The position numbers and the translations under genes are program-made. Below, piece by piece: positions 1,681 through 27,442 of a stretch of 64,000 nt of DNA. Origin of the DNA: an uncultured Alphaproteobacteria bacterium (GTDB lineage: Bacteria > Pseudomonadota > Alphaproteobacteria > HIMB59); NCBI GenBank assembly GCA_902557145.1, contig CACDYZ010000005.1, forward strand, positions 1 through 64,000, given 5' to 3'. The notes below the pieces were generated by a model that did not search any database, was not told the origin of the DNA, and was given only the letters and a program-made list of their open reading frames with translations. Position 1 is the first letter of the stretch. The number at the start of each line of letters is the position of its first letter.

Positions 1681-1717
1681 AAACCCTCTCTAAGCTTTAG
1701 AGAGGGTTTATTTTTAT
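1681..1717 (+). terminator. intrinsic terminator after tmoX
   Basis: A perfect 13-bp stem (AAACCCTCTCTAA, 1681-1693, pairing with 1697-1709) closes a 3-nt loop and is followed by ATTTTTAT. It lies between tmoX and tmoW, so it probably attenuates read-through and sets a high binding-protein to transporter ratio. Confidence 0.85.
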
Positions 1718-1752
1718 AGAAAGAATTTTATTTTAATTAGGGTTATTATTTA

Positions 1753-8548: not shown

Positions 8549-9883
8549 TTATTTAGTCTTTAAGTATGTTTGCATAGAGTCGTCCATTGCCTCTAACCAT
8601 GTGGTGTGGTGTGAAGGCCCAACTGTTCCAGTGACGGGTGAGGGAAAGGATTTATCTCTGTAAGTCAGAATATTTTCCTCCTTGTGATCCTCCCACTCAT
8701 AAAAATTTTTACGAATTAACTCAAAATCAATCTTGGGATAGTCAATAGATGAGCAAAGATCAACGCAGTAATCTGTTTGAAAATCTATCATCTGATGGGC
8801 ATCTTCTAATGCTTCCTCTTTACTAACCCAGTTTTTAATATCCTTTTCCATTTCATCATTGGAAGGAAGCGAAATTTTATTCATGATGATGTCTCTTACA
8901 TACCAAGCTTGAGCGTCAAACATATTAAAAGTATGAAATTGGTCCTGCATACCTAAATAAAACAAATTTGGATTATCTTGCCAAGCAACCCCTTTGTAAA
9001 GTTTAGGAGGGTATAATCTATTATGAGTTTTTAATTTTAATTCTTCAGATAAAAAAGGAAAGTGATGAAGGTAACCAGTACACAAAATTAGAGCATCCAT
9101 CTCTTGAACAGTCCCATCTTTAAATATTGCCTTATTGCCTTCAATCCTATCCATATAATGAACTTCCTTCATTCCCTCTGGCCAATGAAATCCCATAGGA
9201 TTATTTCTATAACCAATAGTTACAGACTTAGCTCCATATTTATGACACTGTAAGGCAACATCCTCTGCAGAATAACTACTACCTAAAACTACAACGTTTT
9301 TATTTCGAAACTCTTCTGCATCTCTGAAATCATGTGAGTGCATAATCCTTCCAGGAAAAGAACTCATGCCTTTATATTCAGGTATATAAGGAACTGAAAA
9401 GTGACCTGTTGCTACAACAACGTTATCAAAACTTTCAGTACTAATCTTATCTTCAACCTTATCCTTGTAAGAAACATTAAATGAATCTCCATCACTGGTA
9501 ACACTAGTGACAGTAGTATTAAACTTTACATTTTTTTTTAATTCTGATTTTTCTGCTCTACCAATTATATAATCTTTTAAAACTTCTCTAGGTGGGAAGG
9601 AGGGTATTGGCTTATTAAAATGCTCATCAAAAGAATAATCTGCAAACTCTAAGCACTCCTTTGGACCATTAGACCATAGATACCTGTACATACTATTAGG
9701 AATCGGATCACCAAACTCATCAGATCCTGTTCTCCAACTATAATTCCAAAGTCCACCCCAGTCAGACTGTTTATCAAATGCTACTACTTCCGGTATATCT
9801 TCACCTTTTTTTTTGGCTTGATATAAGGATCTAAGAAATGATAAACCACATGGACCGGTACCAATTAAAGCTACTTTTGTCAT
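8549..9883 (-). CDS. tmm: trimethylamine monooxygenase (Tmm)
   Basis: Flavin-containing monooxygenase oxidising trimethylamine to TMAO with NADPH and O2, 444 aa (usual Tmm length near 445). FAD motif GTGPCGLSFLRSL lies at 8-20. The FMO signature FPGRIMHSHDF (family FxGxxxHxxxF/Y) is near 185, with VVATGHF before it. NADPH motif VVLGSSYSAEDVA is near 205, and CTGYLHHFPFL near 280. The gene is divergent from mgdA across a 174-bp region that holds a palindrome shared with the IclR site family. It supplies TMAO to Tdm encoded just beside it. Confidence 0.93.
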   Translation of the reverse strand: MTKVALIGTGPCGLSFLRSLYQAKKKGEDIPEVVAFDKQSDWGGLWNYSWRTGSDEFGDPIPNSMYRYLWSNGPKECLEFADYSFDEHFNKPIPSFPPREVLKDYIIGRAEKSELKKNVKFNTTVTSVTSDGDSFNVSYKDKVEDKISTESFDNVVVATGHFSVPYIPEYKGMSSFPGRIMHSHDFRDAEEFRNKNVVVLGSSYSAEDVALQCHKYGAKSVTIGYRNNPMGFHWPEGMKEVHYMDRIEGNKAIFKDGTVQEMDALILCTGYLHHFPFLSEELKLKTHNRLYPPKLYKGVAWQDNPNLFYLGMQDQFHTFNMFDAQAWYVRDIIMNKISLPSNDEMEKDIKNWVSKEEALEDAHQMIDFQTDYCVDLCSSIDYPKIDFELIRKNFYEWEDHKEENILTYRDKSFPSPVTGTVGPSHHTTWLEAMDDSMQTYLKTK

Positions 9884-10057: not shown

Positions 10058-11314
10058 ATGCAAAAATATTCTGTCTTCAGCTTAGTTAAAAATGCTTTCA
10101 CTAACCACCAAGATTGGGAAGTAGCTTGGAAAGACCCCGAACCTAAAAAAGAGTATGATGTAATTATTATAGGTGGCGGTGGTCACGGTCTAGCAACTGC
10201 ATACTATCTCGCAAAAGAGCACGGCATAACTAATGTTGCTATTTTAGAGAAAGGCTGGATAGGTGGAGGTAATGTTGGAAGAAATACAACGATCCTTCGA
10301 TCGAATTACATGTTTGACTCGAATGCCCATTTTTATGAATTTGGAATGAAATTATGGGAAACACTTAGTCAAGAACTTAATTATAATGTCATGTATTCAC
10401 CAAGAGGAATTATTAATCTAGCTCACTCTGATGCACAAATGAATGCTTATGCAAGAAGAGGGAATTCAATGAGGCTTAATGGTATTGATGCAATTCTACT
10501 TGGTAGGGATGAAATTAAACAAATGATCCCATTTGCAGATTTTTCTGAAACTTGTCGTTTTCCAATACATGGTGGACTGATGCAACCTCGAGGGGGAACA
10601 GCAAGACACGATGCTGTTGCTTGGGGTTATGCAAGACAAGCGGACTCAATGGGTGTTGATATAATTCAAAATTGTGAAGTCACAGGCTTTGATGTTAATA
10701 ATGGAAAAATTGAAGGTGTTCAAACATCAAGAGGAAGTATTAAAACAAAAAAAGTTGGACTATGTGTTGCAGGTAGTACAACTCTTCTTGCTGACATGTT
10801 AAATATGAGATTACCAATCGAAGCTCATGTTTTACAAGCTTGTGTCTCTGAACCGGTAAAACCATTACTACATCAAGTTGTAACTTTTGGAGCAGGACAC
10901 TTTTATTGTAGTCAGTCTGATAAAGGTGAAATGGTTATGGGCGGCGACCTAGACGGTTATAATAGTTATGCCCAAAGAGGTAATATGCCTATGATTCAGC
11001 ATGTTCTCACAGGGGGATTAGCAGTATTCCCAAACTTTAGTAGACTGAAAATGCTTAGAACTTGGGGTGGAATTATGGATATGTCCATGGATGGCTCTCC
11101 TATAATAGATAAAACGCATATAGACGGTGTCTATCTAAATTGTGGCTGGTGCTACGGAGGGTTCAAAGCAACTCCTTGTTCAGGGTGGGTTTTTGCTCAC
11201 ACAATTGCTCAAGACAAGGTGCATGAATTAAATTCCGACTTTAATTTAGAACGTTTTCATACCGGTAAAATTATTGATGAAAAAGGTGTCGGCCCTAAGC
11301 CCTGGATCGGTTAA
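10058..11314 (+). CDS. mgdA: N-methylglutamate dehydrogenase subunit A (SoxB-like)
   Basis: Flavoprotein subunit of the four-subunit enzyme that oxidises N-methylglutamate to glutamate and methylene-THF. It is 418 aa and homologous to the beta subunit of tetrameric sarcosine oxidase. It has FAD motif IIIGGGGHGLATAYY (about 37-51), GGGNVGRNTTILRSNY and TARHDAVAWGYAR, where His184 corresponds to the His that carries covalent FMN in SoxB. The C-terminal NCGWCYGGFKATP is the typical catalytic-face loop. It is first in a seven-gene run, mgdABCD-mgsABC. The methylamine role rather than sarcosine oxidation is assigned from linkage to mgsABC, tmm, tdm and gmaS. Confidence 0.88.
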   Translation: MQKYSVFSLVKNAFTNHQDWEVAWKDPEPKKEYDVIIIGGGGHGLATAYYLAKEHGITNVAILEKGWIGGGNVGRNTTILRSNYMFDSNAHFYEFGMKLWETLSQELNYNVMYSPRGIINLAHSDAQMNAYARRGNSMRLNGIDAILLGRDEIKQMIPFADFSETCRFPIHGGLMQPRGGTARHDAVAWGYARQADSMGVDIIQNCEVTGFDVNNGKIEGVQTSRGSIKTKKVGLCVAGSTTLLADMLNMRLPIEAHVLQACVSEPVKPLLHQVVTFGAGHFYCSQSDKGEMVMGGDLDGYNSYAQRGNMPMIQHVLTGGLAVFPNFSRLKMLRTWGGIMDMSMDGSPIIDKTHIDGVYLNCGWCYGGFKATPCSGWVFAHTIAQDKVHELNSDFNLERFHTGKIIDEKGVGPKPWIG

Positions 11315-11317
11315 TTA

Positions 11318-11590
11318 ATGTTAGAAATAAAATGCCCCTATTGTGGCAAACGATCTCAAAATGAATTCTCTTATGGTGGTGACGCTACTGTCAAACGTCC
11401 TACGCTAGGGGAAGAAATCTCAACAGAAGATTGGGACAACTTTGTATATTTTAGAGACAACCCCAGAGGTAAACATACAGAACTATGGCATCATGTTTCA
11501 GGTTGTAGACAATGGTTCAAGGCTTCCAGAGACACTGCTACTCATGAAATCTTTGATACATGTAAAATGAACGAGGCTTTCAATGAGTAA
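11318..11590 (+). CDS. mgdB: N-methylglutamate dehydrogenase subunit B (SoxD-like)
   Basis: A 90-aa zinc subunit homologous to sarcosine oxidase delta. The four zinc ligands are all present at positions matching those I recall for the family: Cys6 and Cys9 (KCPYCGK), His59 and Cys63 (HHVSGCRQWF). It starts 3 bp after mgdA and its end overlaps mgdC by 8 bp, so it is translationally coupled into the complex. Confidence 0.88.
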   Translation: MLEIKCPYCGKRSQNEFSYGGDATVKRPTLGEEISTEDWDNFVYFRDNPRGKHTELWHHVSGCRQWFKASRDTATHEIFDTCKMNEAFNE

Positions 11591-14582
11591 TGCCTATAGA
11601 ACAAAAAATTCAACTGGCTTAATAAATAAAAATAAAAAAATTAATTTCTCTTTTAATGGCCACACTTATCATGGATACGAAGGAGACACTCTCGCATCTG
11701 CTTTAATATCAAATGGTATTCATTTAATTGGAAGAAGTTTTAAATATCACCGACCAAGAGGCTTTTTAGGAGTTGGAGTAGAAGAACCAAACGCAATGGT
11801 TCAACTACATGAAGGTAACAAGTCAGAACCCAATATTATGGCAACGGAAGTAGAACTTGTTGAAGGTCTTAAAGCAAAAAGTCAAAATTGTTGGCCGTCA
11901 GTTCAATTTGATATAGGCGAAGTTAATAATTTACTTAATCGTTTTTTCCCAGCAGGTTTTTATTACAAAACCTTCATGTGGCCAAAGAGCTTCTGGATGA
12001 AAATATATGAACCTTTTATAAGAAAAGCCGCAGGGATGGGAGTGGCTCCACTTCAACCTGATCCCGATAGATATGAACATAATTACGAACACTGTGATGT
12101 TCTTGTTGTTGGTTCTGGCCCCTCTGGTTTAGCCAGTGCATTAGCAGCTGCAAAAAACGGTGCTAGGGTTATTCTTGCTGAAGATAAAGCTAACTTCGGA
12201 GGATCACTTCTTACAGATGAAGTTACAATTGGAAATATGTCAGGTAAAGAATGGGCGAACGATACTGTAGCCCAATTAAAAAGTTTACCGAATGTAATAA
12301 TGAAAAAAAGATCTCAGGTTTTTGGATATTATGATCATAATATGACTGTAATGATCGAAAGGGTCAGCGATCACCAAGAAAACCCATCAAAATATACCCC
12401 AAGACAAAGATTACATTATATTAGAGCAGGTGAGGTAATTGTATCGACGGGCTCTATAGAAAGACCAATTTCTTTTGGTAATAATGACAGACCAGGGATT
12501 TTGTTAGCATCTGCGGCTAAGGAATATATGAAAGTTTACGAAACGTTGGTTGGTAAAAAACCTATTATTTTTACGAACAATGATACTGCTTATTCAACTG
12601 CCCTAGAATTTTTAAAAAACGACATTGTCCCAGTAATTTTAGATACTAGAAATAATTCCAACGGCGAGTTGGTTAAGGAAGTTAAACAAAAAGGGGTCAA
12701 TATTAGATTTAATTCTGGTATTGCTGACACAAAAGGTCATTTAAAAATTAAATCTGCAGTCATTGGTGAATTAGATAAAGACAAAGAAAACTTCACTAGC
12801 TTGGAGAGTATAGACTGTGATTGCATTTGTATGTCTGGTGGTTGGACTCCAACAGTTCATTTATCATCTCAAGCTGGCAATAAATTAAAATTTAATGAAG
12901 AAATAGATGCTTTTGTTCCTGACAAAAAAAGACAAAGAGAAAGTGCAGTGGGAGCAGCTAATGGATCATTTACACTAAACCAATCTTTAGCTGAAGGTTT
13001 TCAAGTTGGATTTGATCTATCAAATAAGTTTACAGATAATAATATTGAAACTAACACACCAAATTCAAAAGAACCAAAATACGAAAAACATGAAAGATTA
13101 TGGTGTATGCCTTTACCACAGGGTAAAAAACCAAAACGTTTCATCGATTTTCAAAATGATGTTGCTGTGTCCGATGTTGAATTAGCTATCAGAGAGGGCT
13201 TTAGATCTATTGAACACGTCAAAAGATATACAACTTTAGGAATGGCTGGAGATCAAGGTAAAACCAGTAATCTAAACGGTCTTCAGTATGTCTCAAATAT
13301 TGAAAAGAAAATTGTCCCTGAGGTTGGTCATACAACATTTCGACCACCTTATACTCCTGTAACTATTGGAGCAATTGTAGGTAGAGAAGTTGGCAACCAT
13401 TACTTACCGACTAGGAAATCTCCAATTCATAATTGGCATGAAGAAAATAATGCTGTTTTTGTTGCAGCAGGGTTATGGCAAAGACCTAGATATTATCCTA
13501 AAGAGTCAGAGAACATGAATGATGCAGTTAATAGGGAAGCTGCAAACGTAAGAAAAAATGTTGGAATATGTGATGTAACAACGCTTGGAAAAATAGATAT
13601 TAAAGGCCCAGATGCTCCTGAGTTTTTAAACAGAGTTTACACAAATGCTTGGTTAAAATTACCTGTAGGTAAAGCTAGATACGGTGTGATGCTTAGAGAA
13701 GATGGCATGGTTTTTGATGATGGGACTACTTCAAGACTATCAGAAAATCATTTTCATATGACGACTACCACAGCACAAGCAGCGAATGTTCTCTCTCACT
13801 TAGAATATTATCTCCAAGTGGTCTGGCCGGAATTAGATGTTAATGTTTTATCAACAACTGAGCAGTGGTCAGGTATTGCTGTTGCGGGACCAAAGTCCAG
13901 AGAACTTTTATCAAAATTATTTCCCAATATAGATTTATCTAATGAAGGATTGCCGTTTATGGGATTAGTTGACACCAACATTGATGGTATTTTTGCTAGA
14001 ATTTATCGAATATCTTTCTCCGGAGAGTTAGCTTATGAAGTAAACGTTGAGTCTAATTTTGGTCTTCATATGTGGAAGAAGATTATGGATGAGGGTAAAG
14101 CTTTTAATATAGAGCCTTATGGTACAGAAGCATTGTCCACACTTAGAATTGAAATGGGTCACGTTGCTGGTGCTGAGTTAGATGGAAGAGCAGTTCCTTT
14201 TGACGTGGGTTTAAATGGAATGGTAAGTAAGAAAAAAGATTTCATTGGTAAAAGATCTCTATCTAAAGAAGCGTTCACATCAGAAGACAGACAAACTATT
14301 GTTGGATTAGTTCCACTTGATAAAAGAACTAAAATTCCTGAAGGTTCTCATATTGTTGAGAATGATAAAGTAGCATCTCCTGTACCAAAACTAGGTCATG
14401 TATCTTCATCTTGTTGGAGTGTGGAATATAATAACCCATTTTCTATAGCAATAATAAAAGATGGAAAAAATAAAATAGGAAAAAATCTTTTTGCTGTATC
14501 CCCTTTAAAAGATATTTCAATTCCAGTTGAGGTTGTTTCTTCTCATTACGTTGATCCAGATGGCGAGAGAGTTAGATCTTAA
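11583..14582 (+). CDS. mgdC: N-methylglutamate dehydrogenase subunit C (SoxA-like)
   Basis: Largest subunit, 999 aa, homologous to sarcosine oxidase alpha. The N-terminal part (FSFNGHTYHGYEGDTLASAL) is the ferredoxin-fold segment. Then comes an NAD-binding Rossmann motif, VVGSGPSGLASALAAAKNGA, near residue 175. From about 615 a GcvT-type folate domain runs to the end (RKNVGICDVTTLGKIDIKGPDA, then SFSGELAYEVNV and PYGTEALSTLRIEMGH). The folate domain receives the C1 unit released in a channel from MgdA. The length matches the family (about 965-1000). Confidence 0.88.
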   Translation: MSNAYRTKNSTGLINKNKKINFSFNGHTYHGYEGDTLASALISNGIHLIGRSFKYHRPRGFLGVGVEEPNAMVQLHEGNKSEPNIMATEVELVEGLKAKSQNCWPSVQFDIGEVNNLLNRFFPAGFYYKTFMWPKSFWMKIYEPFIRKAAGMGVAPLQPDPDRYEHNYEHCDVLVVGSGPSGLASALAAAKNGARVILAEDKANFGGSLLTDEVTIGNMSGKEWANDTVAQLKSLPNVIMKKRSQVFGYYDHNMTVMIERVSDHQENPSKYTPRQRLHYIRAGEVIVSTGSIERPISFGNNDRPGILLASAAKEYMKVYETLVGKKPIIFTNNDTAYSTALEFLKNDIVPVILDTRNNSNGELVKEVKQKGVNIRFNSGIADTKGHLKIKSAVIGELDKDKENFTSLESIDCDCICMSGGWTPTVHLSSQAGNKLKFNEEIDAFVPDKKRQRESAVGAANGSFTLNQSLAEGFQVGFDLSNKFTDNNIETNTPNSKEPKYEKHERLWCMPLPQGKKPKRFIDFQNDVAVSDVELAIREGFRSIEHVKRYTTLGMAGDQGKTSNLNGLQYVSNIEKKIVPEVGHTTFRPPYTPVTIGAIVGREVGNHYLPTRKSPIHNWHEENNAVFVAAGLWQRPRYYPKESENMNDAVNREAANVRKNVGICDVTTLGKIDIKGPDAPEFLNRVYTNAWLKLPVGKARYGVMLREDGMVFDDGTTSRLSENHFHMTTTTAQAANVLSHLEYYLQVVWPELDVNVLSTTEQWSGIAVAGPKSRELLSKLFPNIDLSNEGLPFMGLVDTNIDGIFARIYRISFSGELAYEVNVESNFGLHMWKKIMDEGKAFNIEPYGTEALSTLRIEMGHVAGAELDGRAVPFDVGLNGMVSKKKDFIGKRSLSKEAFTSEDRQTIVGLVPLDKRTKIPEGSHIVENDKVASPVPKLGHVSSSCWSVEYNNPFSIAIIKDGKNKIGKNLFAVSPLKDISIPVEVVSSHYVDPDGERVRS

Positions 14583-14583
14583 T

Positions 14584-15180
14584 ATGCTTGTTATGGAGAA
14601 TATTTCACCACTTCACTTTGATCATAAACTTGGTTTTTATGGGGACTATGAAAATAAAGAGGACATACTTAAATTAACTGAAGTAAAAGAATTATCTATT
14701 TTTCAAATTGCTAAATTTAAAAAAAGTAGCGTTGATATAAATCAAATAACTTTTAATAATTTAAAATTACCAACTAAAAGTCTAACAGTTACTTCAGATA
14801 ATATTGTTAGGATTTTATGGGTAGGTCCTGATACATGGTTGATTATATCTAAAGATAAAAAACTCATTGAGGATATTCATAGTATTTTTAATGAAAATGA
14901 TTTTGCTGTTACTGACATCTCTCAATCAAGAGCAGTCATTGAAATCAGTGGCTCAAAGTCAAAGGACGTATTAAAAAAAGGTTCACCGTTAAACTTTAAC
15001 GACGATATGTTTAAACCGAATAATTGTGCTAACACAACTTATAATGGAATTAATATTATTATTGATTTTATTAGTGAAGAACCAGACTGCTTTAATCTTT
15101 TTGCCCTCAGAAGTTTTGGAGGCTCTTTTTATCATAGTATAACTGACTCATGTTTAGAGTATGGTTATGAAGCCATATAA
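14584..15180 (+). CDS. mgdD: N-methylglutamate dehydrogenase subunit D (SoxG-like)
   Basis: A 198-aa gamma-type subunit of the heterotetramer. It has the weak GcvT-like fold of SoxG, with RILWVGPDTWLIIS and FAVTDISQSRAVIEISGSKSKDVLKKGSPLNF, split here by dissimilar linker. The frame is open from 14527 inside mgdC, but ATG 14584 (or 14593) directly after the mgdC stop is the natural start and gives the usual SoxG length. It is the least conserved subunit and is recognised mainly by position and these two segments. Confidence 0.8.
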   Translation: MLVMENISPLHFDHKLGFYGDYENKEDILKLTEVKELSIFQIAKFKKSSVDINQITFNNLKLPTKSLTVTSDNIVRILWVGPDTWLIISKDKKLIEDIHSIFNENDFAVTDISQSRAVIEISGSKSKDVLKKGSPLNFNDDMFKPNNCANTTYNGINIIIDFISEEPDCFNLFALRSFGGSFYHSITDSCLEYGYEAI

Positions 15181-15185
15181 CAAAG

Positions 15186-16067
15186 ATGTGTGGAATAGTC
15201 GGTCTTTACCTAAAGAATAAAAAATACAATAAAGATCTTGGTAAATTTTTAACCGGAATGATGAATAATATGTCTACTCGAGGACCTGACAGCGCAGGTT
15301 TTGCAATCTATTCAACTGAAAGAAAAAAGAAATACAAATATTCTATTTGCTATAACAAAAACAATATCAAAGAAATTAAAAAAAAACTTAGTAAAGAAAT
15401 TAAAGATGCAAAAATAAAAATAATATCTGATCATTTTGTCTTAGAGACATCATTAAAACCTGTAAAAGTAATAAGTATTATCAAGGGTTATAATAATTTA
15501 AATTTAGTTGGCTATGGAAGTTCAATAGAAATATTTAAACAGGTTGGAAATCCAAGAGATGTTGTAAATAATTTTTCACTTAAAAATTTTTCTGGTACTC
15601 ATGCTATTGGGCATACAAGAATGGCTACAGAAAGTGCAATTACAACAGATGGATCACATCCTTATTCAACAGGAGAGGATGAGTGCCTAGTTCACAACGG
15701 CTCACTGTCAAATCATAACAATTTAAGAAGAACACTAAAAAAAAAGGGAATAGAAATTAAATCTCAAAACGACACAGAGGTAGCTGCTGGTTACATTTCA
15801 AATGGTTTATCAAATAAGAAATCTTTAAAAGAGACATTAATTGATGGATTAAAAGACTTAGATGGTTTTTATACTTTTATTTCTGGTACCAAAAATGGTT
15901 TAGCAATAGTAAGAGATGAAATTGCTTGTAAGCCTGCTGTTGTGGCAGAAACAAAGGATTACGTTGCTATAGCTTCAGAGTTTCAAGCAATGGCTCATTT
16001 ACCTAATGTTAACAAAGCAAAAATTTTTGAACCTGAACCTGGTTTAGTATACAGCTGGGGAAAATGA
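15186..16067 (+). CDS. mgsA: N-methylglutamate synthase subunit A, class-II glutamine amidotransferase domain
   Basis: A 293-aa Ntn-type amidotransferase subunit. Met-Cys-Gly-Ile at the start gives the catalytic N-terminal Cys after Met removal. RGPDSAGF, GIGHTRMATES-like AIGHTRMATES and LVHNGSLSNH are the glutamine-site loops. Homologous to GlxB and the glutaminase domain of glutamate synthase. It is 6 bp after mgdD and overlaps mgsB (ATGA). With B and C it transfers methylamine, or the methylamide of gamma-glutamylmethylamide, to make N-methylglutamate. A paralogue lies at 21948. Confidence 0.82.
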   Translation: MCGIVGLYLKNKKYNKDLGKFLTGMMNNMSTRGPDSAGFAIYSTERKKKYKYSICYNKNNIKEIKKKLSKEIKDAKIKIISDHFVLETSLKPVKVISIIKGYNNLNLVGYGSSIEIFKQVGNPRDVVNNFSLKNFSGTHAIGHTRMATESAITTDGSHPYSTGEDECLVHNGSLSNHNNLRRTLKKKGIEIKSQNDTEVAAGYISNGLSNKKSLKETLIDGLKDLDGFYTFISGTKNGLAIVRDEIACKPAVVAETKDYVAIASEFQAMAHLPNVNKAKIFEPEPGLVYSWGK

Positions 16068-16750
16068 TTAAATTAAATCTTAAAAAAGACTCTTTGAGAA
16101 AAGTTAACGAGTTACTTCAAAATCTTGACCAAAAATCAAATGATAGAAGTTTCAAAATAATCAATCCAGATGGTAATCATGCTATTTGTGCGGGTTTAAA
16201 AGATGAAATGGATGTAACCATTGAAGGTCATGTTGGTTATTACTGTGCAGGGATGAACATGAAAGCCGATGTGACAGTTAATGGTAATGTAGGAACAGGC
16301 GTAGCTGAGAATATGATGTCAGGATCTGTTCACGTAAAAGGTAATGCTTCTCAGTCGGCTGGTGCTACTGCCCATGGTGGAACATTAATTGTTGATGGAG
16401 ATACAAGTTCTCGTTGTGGAATTTCTATGAAGGGTATAGATATTATTGTAAAAGGCTCAGTTGGTCATATGTCTGCATTTATGGCACAGTCAGGGAACTT
16501 AGTAATTTGTGGAGATGCTGGTGATGCGTTAGGAGATAGTATTTATGAAGCAAAAATTTTTATTAAAGGTGAACCTAAATCCTTAGGAGCTGATTGTGAA
16601 AAAAAAAATATGAATAAAAAAGATCAAGACCTTCTAAAATCTCTTTTGAAAAAAGCAAGTATTGATGAAAATCAATTAACACATTTTAAAATGTATGGCT
16701 CAGCAAGAAAGCTTTATAATTTTAATATAGATAATGTATCGGAGTATTAA
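16064..16750 (+). CDS. mgsB: N-methylglutamate synthase subunit B (GlxC-like beta-helix)
   Basis: A 228-aa homologue of the C-terminal GXGXG beta-helix domain of glutamate synthase. Repeating turns are visible: GHVGYYCAGMNMKADVTVNGNVGTGVAENMMSG (split over about 55-87), HVKGNASQSAGATAHGG and VICGDAGDALGDSIYEA. It is structural and positions the amidotransferase against the FMN domain. It is 50 aa shorter than the paralogue at 22877, mainly at the N-terminus. It overlaps both neighbours by 1-4 bases. Confidence 0.8.
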   Translation: MIKLNLKKDSLRKVNELLQNLDQKSNDRSFKIINPDGNHAICAGLKDEMDVTIEGHVGYYCAGMNMKADVTVNGNVGTGVAENMMSGSVHVKGNASQSAGATAHGGTLIVDGDTSSRCGISMKGIDIIVKGSVGHMSAFMAQSGNLVICGDAGDALGDSIYEAKIFIKGEPKSLGADCEKKNMNKKDQDLLKSLLKKASIDENQLTHFKMYGSARKLYNFNIDNVSEY

Positions 16751-18072
16751 TGTCTGAAAAATTTAAAACCGTTCCCAGAAAATCATGGACCTTTGATGAT
16801 TACACGAACTCAGAAATAAGAAGAGCAGCAGAAACTGGAATTTATGACATACGAGGAGGTGGTTCCAAAAAAAGACTACCTCATTTTGATGATTTATTAT
16901 TTTTAGGAGCGTCTATGTCTAGATACCCACTCGAGGGTTATAGAGAGAAATGTTCAACAAACGTTACTCTAGGGACTAGACATGCAAAAAAACCATTAGA
17001 GCTTGATATACCTATAACGATCGCAGGTATGAGCTTTGGAGCTTTATCTGGTCCTGCAAAAGAAGCACTTGGTAGAGGCGCTAGTATTTCAGGTACCTCA
17101 ACTACGACAGGTGATGGGGGGATGACCCCAGAAGAAAGAGGACAATCTAAACATTTAGTCTACCAATTACTTCCATCAAGATATGGAATGAACCCAGAAG
17201 ATTTAAGAAAAGCAGATGCTATAGAGGTAGTGATTGGACAAGGTGCAAAACCTGGTGGTGGAGGAATGTTACTTGGTCAAAAAATTAGTGATCGGGTTGC
17301 TGAAATGCGTACCCTTCCAAAGGGAATTGATCAAAGATCCGCATGCCGTCACCCAGATTGGACAGGCCCTGATGATTTAGAAATTAAAATTCTTGAGATA
17401 AGAGAAATTACTGGTTGGAAGGTTCCTATTTTTGTTAAACTTGCAGGAGCTAGACCATACTATGATACAGCTCTTGCTGTAAAAGCTGGAGCAGATGTTG
17501 TTGTTCTAGATGGAATGCAGGGTGGAACTGCTGCAACACAAGAAGTTTTCATTGAAAATGTTGGTCAACCCACTTTAGCATGTATTAGGCCTGCTGTTGA
17601 TGCACTTTTAGATTTAGATATGCATAGAAAAGTTCAGTTAATAGTATCAGGTGGCATTAGAAATGGCGCAGATGTTGCGAAGGCTATGGCCCTAGGCGCT
17701 GATGCTGTTTCAATTGGTTCATCTGCTTTAATAGCACTTGGAGATAATGATCCAAAATGGGAGAGTGACTACAAAAAATTAGGTACAACTGCTGGTGCTT
17801 ATGATGACTGGCACGAAGGAAAAGACCCTTCTGGAATTAATACCCAAGATCCTAAATTAATGAAAAGATTAGACCCTGTTAAAGCGGGTAAACGTCTATC
17901 AAATTATTTGAAGGTAATGACACTAGAAGCCCAAACAATTGCAAGAGCTTGTGGTAAAAACAGCTTACATAATTTAGAACCAGAAGACTTGTGTGCTCTA
18001 ACTGTTGAGGCTGCCGCAATGGCTAGAGTGCCATTAGCTGGTACCGGATGGATCCCGGGATCAAAGTTTTAA
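16750..18072 (+). CDS. mgsC: N-methylglutamate synthase subunit C, FMN glutamate-synthase-like domain lacking Fe-S cysteines
   Basis: A 440-aa FMN barrel of the GltB/GlxD type: IAGMSFGALSGPAKEALGRGA, TTTGDGGMTPEER, GMLLGQKISDRVAEMR and VSGGIRNGADVAKAMALGADAVSIGS. At the place where glutamate synthases and the paralogue at 23713 carry a cysteine triad, this copy reads AYDDWHEGKDPSG. The triad positions are Tyr351, Trp354 and Asp359, so no [3Fe-4S] cluster can form there. The reaction amine + glutamate to N-methylglutamate + ammonia is redox-neutral overall, which fits loss of the cluster. It is the last gene of the mgd-mgs operon. Confidence 0.83.
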   Translation: MSEKFKTVPRKSWTFDDYTNSEIRRAAETGIYDIRGGGSKKRLPHFDDLLFLGASMSRYPLEGYREKCSTNVTLGTRHAKKPLELDIPITIAGMSFGALSGPAKEALGRGASISGTSTTTGDGGMTPEERGQSKHLVYQLLPSRYGMNPEDLRKADAIEVVIGQGAKPGGGGMLLGQKISDRVAEMRTLPKGIDQRSACRHPDWTGPDDLEIKILEIREITGWKVPIFVKLAGARPYYDTALAVKAGADVVVLDGMQGGTAATQEVFIENVGQPTLACIRPAVDALLDLDMHRKVQLIVSGGIRNGADVAKAMALGADAVSIGSSALIALGDNDPKWESDYKKLGTTAGAYDDWHEGKDPSGINTQDPKLMKRLDPVKAGKRLSNYLKVMTLEAQTIARACGKNSLHNLEPEDLCALTVEAAAMARVPLAGTGWIPGSKF

Positions 18073-19094: not shown

Positions 19095-20441
19095 ATGAGT
19101 CTACCGTCTAAATGTGAATATTTAATAATCGGTGCTGGAATACATGGCTTAAGTACAGCTTGGCATTTATGTAAAAAGTTATCTAGTAAAGGACAATTAA
19201 AAGAAAATTCAGTAGTTGTTATTGAAAAAACAAAGGTTGCAAATGGCGCGAGTGGTGTGGCATGTGGAATTGTAAGAAATAACTACTATCAACCTGCAAT
19301 GAGAAGTTTAATGGCTCACTCTGTAGATGTATGGAATGAAAATGCTGAGGCATTAACATATAAACCAGTTGGTTACATGCAAATCAATTCACAATTAATG
19401 CATGAAGGCATGTCAGAAGTTTACCATCAACAAAAAGAAATTGGCTTTGACTCAGAATTTATTGAAGGAGCCAGTGACTGCGAAAAGTACATGAAAGACA
19501 TGCTTCCAGATTGGCAAGCTCAAGGAATAACTTCTGTCTTACATGAAAAAAAGACTGGCTACGGAGCCAACAGGGGAGCGATTGAAGGATTTCATAAATT
19601 AGCCATTTCATCTGGTGCAAAAGTAATTGAGGGTGTTGAAGCAAATAATCTAATCTCCTCAAACGGTAGTGGTGCCGTAACAGCAGTAGAAACATCTGAG
19701 GGAACAATTGAGTGCACACAACTAGTTGTAGCTGCTGGTCCTTGGGTTAGAAAGTTTTGGGAAATTTTAGAGTTACCAAACTCTGTAAAAATTAAAAAAC
19801 CTGACGGGTCTTTCACTGATGAAATACCTATGTGGTCATACATGGCTCTTGAAGAAGGTGAGCTTGAAGTTGATCCACGAAGTTATAAAACAGCAAAGGG
19901 AACTGAGTACCCTGTAATTCATGTTGATACTGAGTCAACGCTTGTCTCAAACAAAACAGGTGATGTAATTCATGAAAATGTAATGTGGGGTTTTTATTAT
20001 AAACCAGATGTATACAGAAATGGTATTCAGGGAGGTTCATCTCCATATGATGTAACCAAACCTGCAAATGATATTAAACTTGATCCTTATGGACATGACT
20101 CTCTTGAATTTCAACCAAGAGCATCTTTTGAGGATAAATGGACTTCTGCTCTGGCTTTTTGTCAGAAGCAATTTGATGGATGTCACAGTAAATATAAAAG
20201 GCAAAATGCCGGCGGTATTGGATGTGTGACTCCTGATCGTTTTCCTGTATTCGACCAATATAGAGAAAACGTGTATATTATAGCAGACGCAAACCACGGA
20301 TATAAAATGGCTGGTGTTGGTGATTTAGTATCCGATGAATTGCTTGGAGGAAAGTCTGAAATTCTAGAACCTTTCAGATTTTCACGTTATGAAGAAGGGA
20401 AATTACATCCGGTTTCAAAGAGCCCATTCCCTTGGAGCTGA
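19095..20441 (+). CDS. FAD-dependent amine oxidoreductase (DAO family)
   Basis: A 448-aa flavoprotein of the DAO/sarcosine-oxidase-beta family. It has the N-terminal FAD motif LIIGAGIHGLSTAWHL (about 10-25), VANGASGVACGIVRNNY near 52, VVAAGPWVRKFW near 210, and C-terminal GGIGCVTPDRFPVFD and IADANHGYKMAGVGDL. It differs from MgdA and stands without B, C or D partners. It is the first gene of the operon after the palindrome (Shine-Dalgarno GGAGGA at 19079). By analogy with the mgd/mgs pair it may oxidise the N-substituted glutamate made by the synthase downstream. Substrate is not known. Confidence 0.75.
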   Translation: MSLPSKCEYLIIGAGIHGLSTAWHLCKKLSSKGQLKENSVVVIEKTKVANGASGVACGIVRNNYYQPAMRSLMAHSVDVWNENAEALTYKPVGYMQINSQLMHEGMSEVYHQQKEIGFDSEFIEGASDCEKYMKDMLPDWQAQGITSVLHEKKTGYGANRGAIEGFHKLAISSGAKVIEGVEANNLISSNGSGAVTAVETSEGTIECTQLVVAAGPWVRKFWEILELPNSVKIKKPDGSFTDEIPMWSYMALEEGELEVDPRSYKTAKGTEYPVIHVDTESTLVSNKTGDVIHENVMWGFYYKPDVYRNGIQGGSSPYDVTKPANDIKLDPYGHDSLEFQPRASFEDKWTSALAFCQKQFDGCHSKYKRQNAGGIGCVTPDRFPVFDQYRENVYIIADANHGYKMAGVGDLVSDELLGGKSEILEPFRFSRYEEGKLHPVSKSPFPWS

Positions 20442-20458: not shown

Positions 20459-21925
20459 ATGACGGCATTAGAAACTTACGTTGCGGAAAAAGAAAGAAAC
20501 GAAAACGTAAAAAAAGTAAGAAAAAAGATCGATGAACTTGGTATTGAATATATTTATTATCAATTTATTTCAGTTACAGGTAGAATAGTCGGTAAAGGTT
20601 ACCCCGCTGATCACTGGGAAACAGTTGCACAAAAAGGCTTCCAGTTAGTTTATGGATCAACCGCTAACTTATTTACAAATAGAAATGGTGATTACATTGG
20701 TTATGGACCAGAGGCCCACGAATTAGTCGGTATTCCAGATCCTGAAACCTTTGTTCAACTTCCTTGGGATAAAAGAATAGCTAGAGTTTTCTGTACTTGC
20801 TTCAGAAATAGAGAAGAAGTCGAAGACCCAGGTGGTTTTTTAACATCAGATTGTAGAGGAAATCTTAAAAGGCAGCATAAAGAATTTAAAGAAAAACATG
20901 GCTTAGAATTAAGAGCAGGTACTGAACCAGAAATGATGTGGTTAACCAAGAACGAAGATGGTACGCCTACAGGCTCTGGTTTCTCAAAACCTTATTGTTA
21001 CCACATTGATCAGTTTGAATCTTTAAGACCTGTTTATATGAAGGTTATTGAGTACTCTAGATTTATGGGTCTTGATATTATTCAAGGTGACCATGAAGAT
21101 GCTCCAGGTCAGTTAGAGTTAAACTTCAATTACGACGATGTATTAAGAAACGCTGATAGATTATCAACCTACAGACAGATTTGCGCTCAAGTTGCTAGAG
21201 AATTTAATTTAATAGCATGCTTCTTGTCAAAGCCATTTGTTGGCGTCTCAGCTTCTGGTTGTCACACTAATATTTCTCTTTGGAAAGATGGAGAGGATCA
21301 ACTCATTCCTTGTGGAAATGATACTAAAGCACTTCCAGGAATGAACCAAGTCTACCATCACAGAAGAGGTGGAGAAAACGTATTCATGCCAGATACTGAT
21401 GACAGAAAAATCCCAGGTAAGGTTGGTCTTAACGCAATTGGCGGTGTTATGGAACATCTTCCTGCTCTGACTGCTCTTGGTTCTTCAACAGTGAATTCAT
21501 ATAGAAGACTTTGGGATGCTGGTTTTTGGGCTCCTGTTTACGCTGACTGGGGTTACCAAAATAGAACTTGTGGCCTTAGAGTTTCTGCACCTGGAAGATT
21601 TGAGTACCGATCAGTTGACTCAGCTCACAACCCTTACTTAATGGGTTCTGGTTTATTAGCTGCCTTTGGTCATGGTATCGATGAGAAAATGGATCCAGGA
21701 AAACCAGAACAGCAAAATATGTATGAAGCAAATGCAGGAAAAGAAAAACTACCAATGACTCTTGGAGAGGCACTTGACAAATTAGATAAAGACAAACTAA
21801 TCCAAGATGCACTACCGGGCGACATGTTAAGAGTATTCACTGAATATAAAAGAGATGAATGGGAAGAATTCCTAGCAACTCCAACTCAGTGGGACCTTGA
21901 TAAATATTTGGATTGCCTACCATAA
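20459..21925 (+). CDS. glutamine-synthetase-like gamma-glutamyl-amine ligase, divergent
   Basis: A 488-aa protein of the glutamine synthetase fold. Metal and glutamate sites are kept: GTEPEMMW, GDHEDAPGQLELNF, GCHTNISLW (His269), YQNRTCGLRV and RFEYRS. The N-terminal loop carrying the ammonium-binding Asp of GS (FTDPLG in the GlnA of this window) reads FISVTG, with Ser38 in place of Asp. The second His of the HxH pair is Asn271, as I recall for GSII enzymes. Free ammonia is therefore an unlikely substrate, and ligation of glutamate to an organic amine is inferred. It has strong Shine-Dalgarno GAGGAGG, and the amidotransferase gene follows within 22 bp. Confidence 0.78.
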   Translation: MTALETYVAEKERNENVKKVRKKIDELGIEYIYYQFISVTGRIVGKGYPADHWETVAQKGFQLVYGSTANLFTNRNGDYIGYGPEAHELVGIPDPETFVQLPWDKRIARVFCTCFRNREEVEDPGGFLTSDCRGNLKRQHKEFKEKHGLELRAGTEPEMMWLTKNEDGTPTGSGFSKPYCYHIDQFESLRPVYMKVIEYSRFMGLDIIQGDHEDAPGQLELNFNYDDVLRNADRLSTYRQICAQVAREFNLIACFLSKPFVGVSASGCHTNISLWKDGEDQLIPCGNDTKALPGMNQVYHHRRGGENVFMPDTDDRKIPGKVGLNAIGGVMEHLPALTALGSSTVNSYRRLWDAGFWAPVYADWGYQNRTCGLRVSAPGRFEYRSVDSAHNPYLMGSGLLAAFGHGIDEKMDPGKPEQQNMYEANAGKEKLPMTLGEALDKLDKDKLIQDALPGDMLRVFTEYKRDEWEEFLATPTQWDLDKYLDCLP

Positions 21926-21947: not shown

Positions 21948-22889
21948 ATGTGTGGAATAGCTGGAGTAATTAATAAAAAGAAAACAGTAAACGTTGGAGA
22001 GCAAATGGGCCTAATGTTACAAGGACTTAAACATAGAGGACCTGACTCAACTGGTTATGCTATGTATGGAACACCACTTAAAAAAGGTTTTGTTATGAGA
22101 TTTAAAATATCTGAAAATGAAGCTGAAAAAGTTAATGCTAACGTTGACTCACCCGTTGATTTAAAAAATAGAAAAAACGCTGTCGATGCTATTTTAAAAA
22201 AACATGGTGCAAAAGTAACAAAGCAAAGCTCCAGCACCCCATACGCTTTTCGATATATATTTGATTTTAAAGGTGATCTCACAGATTTAGCAACAGAAAT
22301 TGAGACAGTCGAAAAAACAGAGATATTATCAATTGGTAAAGGTCTTGAACTTATAAAAGACCTAGGGGATGCCACAACTGTTTCAGACCAGTACGGTCTA
22401 AATAAATTTATGGGTACCCATGGCATTGGTCATACAAGGATGGCCACAGAGTCTGATGTTGACATAAAATCTGCTCACCCTTACTGGGCTTTTCCATTTG
22501 AAGATGTGTCAGTTGTTCATAACGGCCAATTGACAAATTATTGGGGTAACAGAAGAGTACTTGAAAGAAAAGGTTATAGGTTTAATTCAAACTGTGACTC
22601 TGAGATAATTGCAGTTTATATAGCTGACAAAATGGCCAATGGTATTGAACTTGAAAAAGCGATGCATGACAGTTTAGACGAACTAGATGGAGTCTTTACA
22701 TACGTTGTAGCTACGAAAGATCAACTTGGAATGGCCAAAGATCACATGGCTGCAAAGCCAATGGTAATCTATGAAAGCAAAGATATCGTAGCATGTGCAT
22801 CAGAGGAAGTTGCTATTAGGAATATCTTTCCTCATGAAATTAAAACTTATGACCCTTATGAAGCGGAGGTGAAAGTATGGCAGGCTTAA
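21948..22889 (+). CDS. class-II glutamine amidotransferase, second MgsA/GlxB-like subunit
   Basis: A 313-aa Ntn amidotransferase. The frame is open from 21897, but ATG 21948 with AAGGAG upstream gives MCGIAG, the catalytic N-terminal Cys. Glutamine-site loops are HRGPDSTGYAMYG, GIGHTRMATESD and VVHNGQLTNYWG. Paralogue of the gene at 15186 and 20 aa longer. It overlaps the next gene by 13 bp. In this operon it presumably releases the amine from a gamma-glutamyl amide and feeds it to the FMN subunit. Confidence 0.82.
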   Translation: MCGIAGVINKKKTVNVGEQMGLMLQGLKHRGPDSTGYAMYGTPLKKGFVMRFKISENEAEKVNANVDSPVDLKNRKNAVDAILKKHGAKVTKQSSSTPYAFRYIFDFKGDLTDLATEIETVEKTEILSIGKGLELIKDLGDATTVSDQYGLNKFMGTHGIGHTRMATESDVDIKSAHPYWAFPFEDVSVVHNGQLTNYWGNRRVLERKGYRFNSNCDSEIIAVYIADKMANGIELEKAMHDSLDELDGVFTYVVATKDQLGMAKDHMAAKPMVIYESKDIVACASEEVAIRNIFPHEIKTYDPYEAEVKVWQA

Positions 22890-23713
22890 CAAAAAAAACA
22901 TCTGCTTTTGATGATGAAAATTTATCAGGTAGATCCCAAAAACTCTTTTTTGAGGTAACCGAAGAGGAGAATTATACCTATTACGGAAACCACGAGGTTG
23001 ATTTTAATAAGAGAACTTCTATTGACTGTGAAGGGATTAACGCACACGAATTAAATCAAAAAATTAGAGACTCAATTCGAAAAGGATATGGATCTATAGT
23101 AATTAAAAATCCAGGAGCTAAACACTCTCTAGGAGTAGGGATACTAAATAAGCTTAACTTAATTTTTGAAGGAAGCTTAGGCTACTTCGGTATTGGATGC
23201 ATTGATGGCCCAACTGTTAGAGTTAACGGAAGAGTTGGATGGTCTTGTGCAGAAAATATGATGTCAGGAAAAGTTGTTGTTGAAAATAACGCTGGATCTT
23301 GTTTTGGAGCCGCTTTAAGAGGCGGAGACTTAATTGTTAAAGGTGACGCTGGCGCAAGAACTGGAATTGATATGAAAGGCGGCACCATTTTAATTGGTGG
23401 TAATGCCGGTGCTTACACTGGATTTATGATGCAAAGAGGTAGAATTATTGTTTGTGGTAATGTAAATGCAAACATGGGTGACTCTATGTACGATGGTATC
23501 ATTTTTGTTGGAGGAGAACCTCATTCCTTAGGAACTGACTGTGTTCCTGGAGAAATGAATGAACATGAGGTTAGATGGCTAGAACAAAAAATCAAAAACG
23601 CTGAGATTGATTGTAAGGTTCCAGCATCTAAATTTAAAAAATACGTTGCAGGTAGAATGCTTTGGAATTATGACAATCTAGAGCCAGCAGAAAAGAAAGG
23701 AATATTAGGCTAA
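22877..23713 (+). CDS. GXGXG beta-helix subunit, second MgsB/GlxC-like protein
   Basis: A 278-aa homologue of the glutamate synthase C-terminal domain, with an extra N-terminal segment of about 60 aa not in the copy at 16064. The helix turns are clear: GYFGIGCIDGPTVRVNG, VGWSCAENMMSGKVVV, GSCFGAALRGGDLIVKG, GARTGIDMKGGTILIGG and MGDSMYDGIIFVGGEPHSLG. The stop overlaps the start of the FMN subunit gene. It is a structural scaffold of the three-part synthase. Confidence 0.82.
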   Translation: MAGLTKKTSAFDDENLSGRSQKLFFEVTEEENYTYYGNHEVDFNKRTSIDCEGINAHELNQKIRDSIRKGYGSIVIKNPGAKHSLGVGILNKLNLIFEGSLGYFGIGCIDGPTVRVNGRVGWSCAENMMSGKVVVENNAGSCFGAALRGGDLIVKGDAGARTGIDMKGGTILIGGNAGAYTGFMMQRGRIIVCGNVNANMGDSMYDGIIFVGGEPHSLGTDCVPGEMNEHEVRWLEQKIKNAEIDCKVPASKFKKYVAGRMLWNYDNLEPAEKKGILG

Positions 23714-25047
23714 TGGCAAAACGTAATACACAATTATTAGGACAAAACTCAATCTTTACCCCAGAGGTAATGGATGATATTCATATCAAATCACAACTAG
23801 GTCGTTATCGTATGCGTGGCATGGCCTTAATGAAAAAAATACCTCACTGGGATGATTTAGTATTTTTACCTGGAACATTAACACGATTTGTTATCGAAGG
23901 TTACAGAGAGAAATGTTTAACCGAGACTATCATAGGCCCTAGAGCAAAAAATCCTATTAAACTTGATATTCCTGTTTACATAACGAGTATGAGTTTTGGT
24001 GCTCTTTCTTATGAAGCAAAAACTGCCTTAGCTAGAGGATCATCAATGGCAGGAAGTGCTACATGTTCTGGAGAAGGTGGAATGATACCTGATGAAAGAA
24101 GATATTCTCACAAATGGTACTACCAATGTATTCAATCAAGATACGGTTTTAATCCGCATCATGCTCAACTTGCCGACGCTATAGAGGTTTTCATAGGACA
24201 AGGTCAAAAAGTTGGAATGGGTGGTCACTTAATGGGCCAAAAAGTTACTGACCAAGTTGCTGAAATGAGATCCTTGCCCGCTGGTATTGATCAAAGATCT
24301 CCCGCCAGACACCCAGACTGGATGGGTCCAGATGACTTAGCTCTTAAAGTACAAGAATTAAGGGAGTTAACTGACAATCAAGTTCCAATTCAGTTGAAGT
24401 TAGGTGCTTCAAGGGTTTATGACGATGTTAGAATGGCAGCAAAATGTGATCCTGACTCTATATTTTTAGACTCTATGGAAGGTTCTACAGCTGCTGGTCC
24501 GCATATTGCAGCAGCAAATACAGGTATTCCAGGTATCGGTGCTATTCGAGAAGCAAGAAGAGCTCTAGACGACGTGGGTAAAACTGGCGAAATTTCATTA
24601 GTCTTTGCTGGTGGTATCAGAGATGGTGCTGACATGGCAAAAGCTTTAGCTTTAGGAGCTGATGCTATCGCTATCGGAACAGCTGGTTTAGTTGCCTTGA
24701 ACTGTAATAAAGATATTCCTGAAGCCGATTATGAAAAAGAAATGGGTGTTGAAGCAGGTTACTGCTATCACTGTCATACTGGTAGGTGTCCTGTCGGTGT
24801 AGCTACACAAGATCCTGTTCTTAGAAGTAGATTGGATCCAACTGAAGCGGCGGAGAGAGTTTATAATTTATTAAGCACAATGACTCTTGAGTGTCAAATG
24901 TTAGCAAGAGCATGTGGTAAGACAAATATCCACTCTCTTGAACCAGAAGACTTAGCAGCATTAACAATGGAGTCATCAGCAATGGCTAAAGTACCTTTAG
25001 CTGGAACAGATCTGACTGTGGGTGTCGATAACTACCACTCAATCTAG
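23713..25047 (+). CDS. FMN glutamate-synthase-like subunit with intact Fe-S cysteines (MgsC/GlxD-like)
   Basis: A 444-aa FMN barrel of the GltB type: TSMSFGALSYEAKTALARGS, CSGEGGMIPDERR, MGQKVTDQVAEMR and FAGGIRDGADMAKALALGADAIAIG. The segment YCYHCHTGRCPVGVATQ carries Cys351, Cys354 and Cys359. This matches a glutamate-synthase-type [3Fe-4S] site, although the first spacing (CxxC) is shorter than in E. coli GltB. The segment is collinear, without gaps, with the cysteine-less version in the copy at 16750. An electron-accepting, reductive reaction is therefore possible here and not in the first copy. It ends 9 bp before an unknown gene. Confidence 0.83.
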   Translation: MAKRNTQLLGQNSIFTPEVMDDIHIKSQLGRYRMRGMALMKKIPHWDDLVFLPGTLTRFVIEGYREKCLTETIIGPRAKNPIKLDIPVYITSMSFGALSYEAKTALARGSSMAGSATCSGEGGMIPDERRYSHKWYYQCIQSRYGFNPHHAQLADAIEVFIGQGQKVGMGGHLMGQKVTDQVAEMRSLPAGIDQRSPARHPDWMGPDDLALKVQELRELTDNQVPIQLKLGASRVYDDVRMAAKCDPDSIFLDSMEGSTAAGPHIAAANTGIPGIGAIREARRALDDVGKTGEISLVFAGGIRDGADMAKALALGADAIAIGTAGLVALNCNKDIPEADYEKEMGVEAGYCYHCHTGRCPVGVATQDPVLRSRLDPTEAAERVYNLLSTMTLECQMLARACGKTNIHSLEPEDLAALTMESSAMAKVPLAGTDLTVGVDNYHSI

Positions 25048-26134: not shown

Positions 26135-27442
26135 TTAACAGTCTAGAGTGGTCTCTCTCTCCCAACTAGAAAGGTGTTTGTTAAAGGTACCCCAATCTTG
26201 ATTTTTAAGTTTTACATAACTATTAACTAAATCATCACCAAATCCTGCTCTTATAATTTTTGATTTATCAAAATCACGAATAGCATCAAGAAGGTTTAAA
26301 GGAAGTTTTTTTACCTTTCCAGCTTTGTGACCTTCTGTGTACATATTTATATCTAATCGTTTCCCTGGATCTCTTTTATTATTGAAACCATCTAATCCTA
26401 AAAGGAGAATACCTGCTTGAAGTAAATACGGATTTGTAGCACCATCCATAAGTCTTAATTCAAATCTACCAGCTCCAGGAACTCTAACCATGTGTGTTCT
26501 GTTGTTGCCAGCCCATGTAATGGAACTTGGCGACCATGTTGCACCTGATGTAGTGACACTTCCATTAATTCTTTTATATGAGTTTACAGTAGGATTAAAA
26601 ACTGCAGCCATTTTGTCTGCACTTTCCATTATGCCCCCCAAGAAATTATAACCAGTTTTTGATAAACCTAATTCATCTTTTTTATCTAAAAACATATTTT
26701 TTTTGCCAGCCTTATCCCATATTGATATATGACAATGACACCCATTGCCTGTTAAATTAGTAAAGGGTTTTGGCATGAAGGTTGCTCTTAATGAATGTTT
26801 TTCAGCTATTGATTTTACCATAAATTTAAAAAAGGCATGTCTGTCAGCAGTAACTAAACAATCTGAAAAATCCCAGTTCATTTCAAATTGCCCATTCGCA
26901 TCTTCATGATCATTTTGATAGGGTTTCCAGCCAAGTGAAATCATTGAGTCACAAATTTCAGTAATAACATCGTATCTTCTCATTAATGCAGAAGAGTCAT
27001 AACAAGGTTTTGCTTGTGTATCTCTTTCATCTGACAAAGAAGTTCCATCTGCATTGACTAAAAAAAACTCACATTCAACACCAGATTTCATATAAAGATT
27101 TTTTTTAGCCGCTTTTTCAATTTGTCTTTTTAAAGCAATTCTTGGAGATGTTTCTACTGGCTTTCCATCCATGTATAAATCAGATGCGACCCAAGCTATT
27201 TCCTTATTCCACGGAAGTTGTATAACGCTATCACCATCAGGCATTCCAAACATATCTGAGTCAGCTGGAGACATATCTAGCCACGTTGCAAAACCTGCAA
27301 AACCAGCTCCTTCAGATTGAATTTCATCTATAGCTGTTGCAGGTACTAGTTTCGATCTTAGAACTCCAAATAAATCTACAAAACTTACAAAAAAATATTT
27401 CACTCCATTTTTTTTAGCGAATTGATGAAGGTTAGTGCCCAT
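26135..27442 (-). CDS. gmaS: gamma-glutamylmethylamide synthetase / type III glutamine synthetase (GmaS/GlnT)
   Basis: A 435-aa GS-fold ligase very like rhizobial GlnT in length and motifs: FVDLFGVLRSKLVPA with the ammonium-site Asp kept, GAGFAGFATWLDMSPAD, GVECEFFLV, YQNDHEDANGQFEMNW, GNGCHCHISIW, NRTHMVRVPGAGRFELR and NPTVNSYKRING. GmaS enzymes of methylamine users belong to this group and have this size. They join glutamate and methylamine using ATP. There is no adenylylation-site motif of the GlnA type. Divergent from amt. GlnT (true ammonia use) is the alternative reading, and linkage to mgs/mgd favours GmaS. Confidence 0.72.
   Translation of the reverse strand: MGTNLHQFAKKNGVKYFFVSFVDLFGVLRSKLVPATAIDEIQSEGAGFAGFATWLDMSPADSDMFGMPDGDSVIQLPWNKEIAWVASDLYMDGKPVETSPRIALKRQIEKAAKKNLYMKSGVECEFFLVNADGTSLSDERDTQAKPCYDSSALMRRYDVITEICDSMISLGWKPYQNDHEDANGQFEMNWDFSDCLVTADRHAFFKFMVKSIAEKHSLRATFMPKPFTNLTGNGCHCHISIWDKAGKKNMFLDKKDELGLSKTGYNFLGGIMESADKMAAVFNPTVNSYKRINGSVTTSGATWSPSSITWAGNNRTHMVRVPGAGRFELRLMDGATNPYLLQAGILLLGLDGFNNKRDPGKRLDINMYTEGHKAGKVKKLPLNLLDAIRDFDKSKIIRAGFGDDLVNSYVKLKNQDWGTFNKHLSSWERETTLDC

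Follow-up and report, generated by a model that had tools for sequence, protein, structure and literature searches.

A glutamine-synthetase-like amine ligase and its conserved cassette as a candidate for the DMA step in SAR11 and other Alphaproteobacteria

Which amine is handled by GSx, a glutamine-synthetase-like ligase that lies close to TMAO genes in a 64,000-nucleotide stretch of alphaproteobacterial DNA (the window, that is, the whole stretch analysed)? The question bears on SAR11: according to the published view, these bacteria make DMA via Tdm and have no known enzyme that uses it; all SAR11 representatives lack dmmDABC, coding the DMA monooxygenase of marine bacteria, despite the presence of tmm, tdm and gmaS, and a DMA bottleneck was proposed and invoked to explain the DMA found in marine aerosol (PMC5520151). 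HTCC1062 can nonetheless use TMAO as its only source of nitrogen, and an unknown isoenzyme was supposed (PMC8918994). A cassette near tdm that combines a ligase for amines with a complex resembling N-alkylglutamate synthase and an enzyme of sarcosine-oxidase type is a natural candidate for the DMA step.

Genes of the cassette and of its surroundings

The features of the window that are relevant to the argument are the following.

725..4831, + strand: tmoXVW-like TMAO ABC transporter (context), assigned by homology and gene order
4834..7185, + strand: tdm, TMAO demethylase yielding DMA and formaldehyde (context); NF053776 1154.6 bits, equivalog cut-off 1100
8549..9883, - strand: tmm, trimethylamine monooxygenase (context); NF058570 734.7 bits, cut-off 675
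10058..18072, + strand: soxBDAG-like genes (N-methylglutamate dehydrogenase, MgdABCD), then MgsABC1 (N-methylglutamate synthase); soxB subfamily 694.6 bits
18225..18995, + strand: IclR-family regulator, directly upstream of the cassette
19095..20441, + strand: DAO, FAD-dependent amino-acid oxidoreductase, 448 aa; PF01266 115.8 bits; proposed N,N-dimethylglutamate demethylase
20459..21925, + strand: GSx, glutamine-synthetase-like amine ligase, 488 aa; proposed gamma-glutamyl-dimethylamide synthetase
21948..22889, + strand: GlxB2, class II glutamine amidotransferase subunit, starting MCGIAG (true start 21948)
22877..23713, + strand: GlxC2, GXGXG-repeat (glutamate synthase C-terminal type) subunit, overlapping both neighbours
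23713..25047, + strand: GlxD2, glutamate synthase FMN/Fe-S type subunit; PF01645 286.8 bits
25057..25530, + strand: p157, small conserved cassette protein
25576-26130, - strand: p184, between the cassette and gmaS; no family match
26135..27442, - strand: gmaS, gamma-glutamylmethylamide synthetase (context); TIGR03105 644 bits, cut-off 469.6
29357-30088: class I amidotransferase
30392-31801: GS3, third GS-like protein, after the class I amidotransferase and before a MetX-like hydrolase
49402..50817, - strand: glnA, canonical type I glutamine synthetase (control); TIGR00653 653.9 bits, cut-off 429.15; keeps FDGSS

The GSx gene, which the earlier note had read from the letters, is real: the open reading frame 20459-21925 (+) codes for 488 aa and has a ribosome-binding site immediately 5'. 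It is the second gene of an operon in the order DAO-GSx-GlxB2-GlxC2-GlxD2-p157, whose members are separated by gaps of 17, 22 and 9 bases or overlap, DAO ending 17 bases 5' of GSx. Beyond the cassette, on the 3' side, there are gmaS, an ammonium-transporter-family gene, the class I amidotransferase, GS3 and the hydrolase, while on the 5' side the gene order of soxBDAG-MgsABC1 matches the N-methylglutamate pathway (PMC3160333). p184 is also found near the cassette in distant genomes.

DAO is assigned to the sarcosine/dimethylglycine oxidase superfamily. Its nearest solved relatives include sarcosine oxidases and dimethylglycine oxidase/dehydrogenase; they are remote (best E 1e-21), and amino-acid deaminases and glycine oxidase are matched as well among solved structures. 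GlxBCD2 is homologous to MgsABC, and GlxD2 keeps the motif CYHCHTGRC with conserved cysteines; together with GlxB2 and GlxC2 it is proposed to form an N,N-dimethylglutamate synthase. As for the paralogous complex, in MgsC1 (16750-18072) the glutamate-synthase Fe-S motif reads DDWHEGKD, without its three cysteines, which are likewise absent from the Rhodobacteraceae-type MgsC of two loci (L107, L108) and present in MgsC1 homologs of two others (L117, L129). The last protein of the cassette, p157, consists of a lysine-rich N-terminal tail and a highly conserved core; it has no Pfam or NCBIfam match, and its predicted fold (pLDDT 61.8) has no PDB match with E < 0.001.

Family assignment and active site of GSx

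Profile searches place GSx in the GS superfamily by its catalytic domain (PF00120, 268 bits, cut-off 24) and below the curated cut-offs of each family compared: TIGR03105 for GmaS (298.4 bits, cut-off 469.6), TIGR00653 for type I GS (243 bits, cut-off 429.15), NF045547 for the gamma-glutamylputrescine synthetase PuuA (216.5 bits, cut-off 650) and the NCBIfam profile for GS type III. The gmaS product of the window has RhGmaS as its best PDB match (7cql, E 4e-184). In the phylogenetic tree GSx and the related GSx2 sequences form a branch of their own (100/100), apart from the GmaS branch (100/100); the deeper branching order is unsure because of several long branches. The structure model of GSx, obtained from 17 close sequences, was poor (pLDDT 51.6), and the active site was read from alignments.

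The earlier note had reported that the loop FISVTG of GSx carries Ser38 in place of the ammonium-binding Asp of canonical enzymes. The loop and its Ser38 are present as described; the Asp that was replaced is not Asp50. Indeed, in Salmonella GS Asp50, equivalent to Asp53 in B. subtilis, belongs to the motif FDGSS and not to FTDxxG; in RhGmaS the Asp50' loop comprises Phe47'-Ala61', Ala48' takes the place of Asp50, and Asp53' is the counterpart in B. subtilis (PMC7948447). The alignment puts K30, F47, A48, A61, Y147, K287, W300, I305 and R312 on the letters given in PMC7948447. The true Asp50 column has Asp in GlnA (FDGSS), Ala in gmaS and GS3, and Val64 in GSx, or Tyr65 if YGST is laid on DGSS; across all GSx and GSx2 sequences it holds V, W or F. 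The copies at 26135 (gmaS) and 30404 (GS3), cited earlier as retaining the Asp, both have Ala at the true position, so they are not controls and the contrast drawn between them and GSx is invalid. In the alignment, GS3 shows Val in the D177 column and Asp in the N188 column.

As to Ser38 itself, Asp occupies its column in GlnA, gmaS, GS3, RhGmaS, 9qur and an archaeal GS, and the Ser is found without exception in the 26 other aligned sequences of GSx and GSx2, as well as in a second alignment (17 sequences); it is thus neither chance nor a sequencing error, and in the aligned sequences it is a genuine mark of the GSx clade. No other acidic residue was found to fill the position, as there is no invariant acidic residue between E54 and E85, in keeping with what the earlier note had expected. 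The HxN in place of HxH, which had been singled out as well, is ordinary, since the solved structures 8oow and 7tdp, named glutamine synthetase, show HTN and HCN.

The residues which form the MMA pocket of RhGmaS are kept in GSx: K46 (K30'), Y181 (Y147), Q209 (Q175), D211 (D177), E213 (E179), E220 (E186) and N222 (N188); R369 corresponds to R312 and W357 to W300, the latter at the place where canonical GS has the Glu-flap Glu. D211, E220, R369 and W357 are conserved across all GSx sequences of the alignment and D50 is absent from them; in RhGmaS D177 deprotonates MMA, and GmaS enzymes are known to be marked by the lack of Asp50 (PMC7948447), a trait that gmaS and GS3 of the window have as well. 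The retention of this GmaS-type catalytic set supports an organic-amine ligase, an assignment that, as read from the alignments, is well supported for GSx. Thus, the proposal of a pocket for an organic amine is supported by this other evidence, and the Ser38 argument first given for it, which rests on a misnumbered residue, falls.

GSx resembles GmaS (TIGR03105; RhGmaS, 7CQL series; PDB 9qur) in the fold family, in the absence of Asp50 and of the Glu-flap Glu, in the D177/E186/R312 catalytic set and in having a glutamate-synthase-like complex as partner; it differs in Ser38 for Asp, in Val/Tyr for Ala48, in an insertion after the Asp50 loop, in its own GlxBCD2 and DAO and in its separate branch. 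An ammonium-using variant of glutamine synthetase has a next to negligible likelihood: GSx is a PF00120 member with ATP, metal and glutamate motifs, but both type I hallmarks, Asp50 (FDGSS) and the Glu-flap Glu, are missing (V64/Y65, W357), a canonical GlnA is present and the type I score is far under its cut-off (243 vs 429 bits). RhGmaS accepts DMA with a Km of 16 mM, vs 27 uM for MMA; DMA ligation is thus chemically possible within this fold, but GmaS is a poor enzyme for it and a dedicated one would be needed.

Conservation and distribution

Conservation of the operon was read in 80 related loci, mostly from SAR11-type single-cell genomes. DAO adjoins GSx in 71 of the 72 testable relatives and GlxB2 does so in 76/76, while the full GlxBCD2-p157 set was present in all 68 testable loci; tdm lies <=8 kb away in 58 of 61 testable loci, in 37 of them immediately 5' of DAO. 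The arrangement DAO-GSx-GlxB2C2D2-p157, beside TMAO/TMA genes (tmm, tdm, tmoXVW), is conserved in SAR11-type bacteria and in many other Alphaproteobacteria, and adjacency of GSx to tdm, tmm or tmo genes recurs in distant families. In HTCC1062, mapping by gene order and annotation taken from PMC3160333 and PMC5069961, rather than by sequence comparison, gives SAR11_1302 as the TmoX-type gene, SAR11_1303 as the Tdm-type gene, SAR11_1304 (called monomeric sarcosine oxidase) as DAO and SAR11_1305 (glnT) as GSx; SAR11_1302 and SAR11_1305 are similarly lowered in sulfur-limited stationary cells (0.22 and 0.19; PMC5069961).

Some variants of these loci were also observed. A GntR-like regulator often adjoins the cassette (L131, L132, L134, L136, L137, L157), an assignment confirmed with Pfam in L131 and L157 and made by sequence look only in the other loci; the GntR regulator TmoR of Ruegeria pomeroyi responds mainly to DMA (PMC13390433). 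A nitrilase-superfamily amidase lies 3' of p157 in a Rhodobacteraceae-type cassette (L157:13304-14158). GSx2 (53-63% identity; L119, L120, L121, L126, L139, L142) is found beside a second divergent GS-like gene, often with an ABC transporter gene and without GlxBCD2 or DAO, and probably acts on another amine, as judged from its surroundings.

Two Rhodobacteraceae-type islands with tmm and tdm (L159:9479-12141, L161:9411-12097) carry GSx followed by a cytochrome P450, without GlxBCD2 or DAO; a Rieske oxygenase, considered for this gene, was rejected. Here the P450 could demethylate the amide directly, which fits the same first step by GSx, and the arrangement speaks for a route in which the ligation product is demethylated to gamma-glutamylmethylamide and enters the GmaS pathway, GlxBCD2 and DAO doing something else. 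As a general account this is highly improbable, however, as the window cassette has no P450 and the GlxBCD2-DAO set is nearly constant elsewhere.

The distribution was examined in an even draw of 385 Alphaproteobacteria, 34 of which have tdm. GSx occurs in 27 of these 34 (tdm-GSx co-occurrence, p 2e-25) and in 13 genomes with no tdm hit, namely 11 with main-clade GSx and two with the GSx2 type. DmmA was scored as PF11927 proteins of the DmmA type (>=214 bits, vs <=199 for a short subfamily, a split set after the scores had been seen); PF11927 at large was rejected as a marker when a Rhodobacteraceae-type draw showed the short subfamily to be common. For the comparison 32 tdm+ genomes were kept at a Tdm identity of at least 47%, leaving out the divergent G126 (45%), whose PF11927 match (172 bits) was not counted as DmmA, and G753 (44%). 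Twenty-seven of the 32 have GSx without DmmA, four have DmmA without GSx (G158, G374, G087 and G731, with dmmD nearby in 4/4), and one (G029), whose contig ends at tdm, has neither. This mutual exclusion gave a Fisher p of 1.4e-4, or 4e-4 when counted by family, values which overstate independence because the genomes are related.

The same picture was obtained among 249 genomes of one Rhodobacteraceae-type family, that of G158: 21 have main-clade GSx, 35 have DmmA and none has both (p 0.036, with the same overstatement of independence). Each of the 10 GSx loci read in this family has tmm, tdm or tmo genes as neighbours, and most of the dmmDABC loci read there adjoin tmm, tdm, gmaS, mgsABC or tmo genes; in islands of this kind the two systems appear to stand in for each other. 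A distant, lone PF11927 protein, with about 24% identity to DmmA and no dmmD around it, is carried by two GSx genomes of the window's genus (L130:10079-10792 (-)).

These counts bear on two further readings. A small chance is given to the operon being a second MMA system, made of a divergent GmaS, an N-methylglutamate synthase belonging to it, and DAO as an N-methylglutamate oxidase of one subunit. The retention of all MMA-pocket residues of RhGmaS and the homology of GlxBCD2 to MgsABC agree with this, as do five tdm+ GSx+ genomes with no GmaS hit, including all three of one family, four of the five being only 81-86% complete. However, GmaS is already present in 22 of the 27 tdm+ GSx+ genomes, window included, so GSx is no substitute for it; the island of the window that holds the cassette also contains MgsABC1, and the exclusion with DmmA would be left without a reason. 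If the route bypasses free MMA, as proposed below, absence of GmaS in five genomes is expected.

Slightly more weight, still well on the unlikely side, goes to another amine as the substrate of GSx, derived from quaternary-ammonium breakdown or a small primary one such as ethylamine or ethanolamine, the TMAO neighbourhood being simply a shared amine island. The 11 main-clade GSx genomes without tdm would then find an explanation, as they imply either DMA from elsewhere or another amine, and the related GSx2 has other surroundings, with ABC transporters and a further GS-like gene as neighbours. Against this are the repeated tdm, tmm or tmo adjacency in distant families and the exclusion with DmmA; furthermore, no constant gene marking another amine was found in the cassette.

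Proposed route for DMA and its significance

The reading we favour, and consider rather probable, is that GSx joins glutamate and DMA, with GlxBCD2 and DAO continuing to N-methylglutamate. The sequences show how the genes are built and arranged, that the operon is conserved and set among TMAO genes, that the active site of GSx is of the GmaS type, and that GSx and DmmA are distributed in a complementary way; from these observations we infer the substrate of GSx and every reaction of the pathway. GSx would form gamma-glutamyl-dimethylamide from glutamate, DMA and ATP; the amidotransferase domain of GlxB2 would free DMA inside the GlxBCD2 complex, where GlxD2 would reduce the iminium of DMA and 2-oxoglutarate to N,N-dimethylglutamate. 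Oxidative demethylation by DAO would then yield N-methylglutamate, to be converted by an MgdABCD-type enzyme to glutamate and methylene-tetrahydrofolate. DMA made by Tdm from TMAO would in this way be degraded via glutamate, without DmmDABC and without free methylamine. A literature search that covered for the most part open-access journal articles, judged from its result lists, found no naming of gamma-glutamyl-dimethylamide, no N,N-dimethylglutamate as a bacterial pathway intermediate and no precedent for its formation by a glutamate-synthase-type enzyme.

The scheme parallels the N-methylglutamate pathway (GmaS, MgsABC, MgdABCD), in which the amine is activated on glutamate, moved to the alpha position and oxidised; unlike that pathway, the cassette has paralogous parts, a single-subunit DAO and the extra p157, and it is proposed for DMA rather than for MMA. 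With DmmDABC it would share the step, removal of the first methyl group from DMA after Tdm, whereas its proteins are unrelated, the window cassette includes no oxygenase and the two systems are mutually exclusive in the genomes examined. The Puu pathway also combines a GS-like ligase (PuuA) with an FAD oxidoreductase, as GSx and DAO are combined here; it is not known to have a glutamate-synthase-like complex.

The general idea of an organic amine, formulated in the earlier note, has thus been retained with a different amino acid at its base; the operon and the TMAO context, which point to the likely amine, had gone unseen. The odds are about even that a glutamate-mediated DMA pathway takes the place of DmmDABC in SAR11 and many other Alphaproteobacteria, and that much of the DMA of the ocean is turned over by it. 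TMAO and TMA figure among the important nitrogen compounds of the ocean, and DMA serves as a marine aerosol precursor; if the cassette handles DMA, the SAR11 bottleneck would in part be an annotation gap, GSx would serve as a genetic marker of DMA use, and N,N-dimethylglutamate would be a new metabolite to test for. Even with another amine as substrate, the cassette would represent an amine route that is uncharacterised and widespread among abundant marine bacteria. It probably fits the missing DMA step of SAR11, in the most abundant bacteria of the ocean and their relatives.
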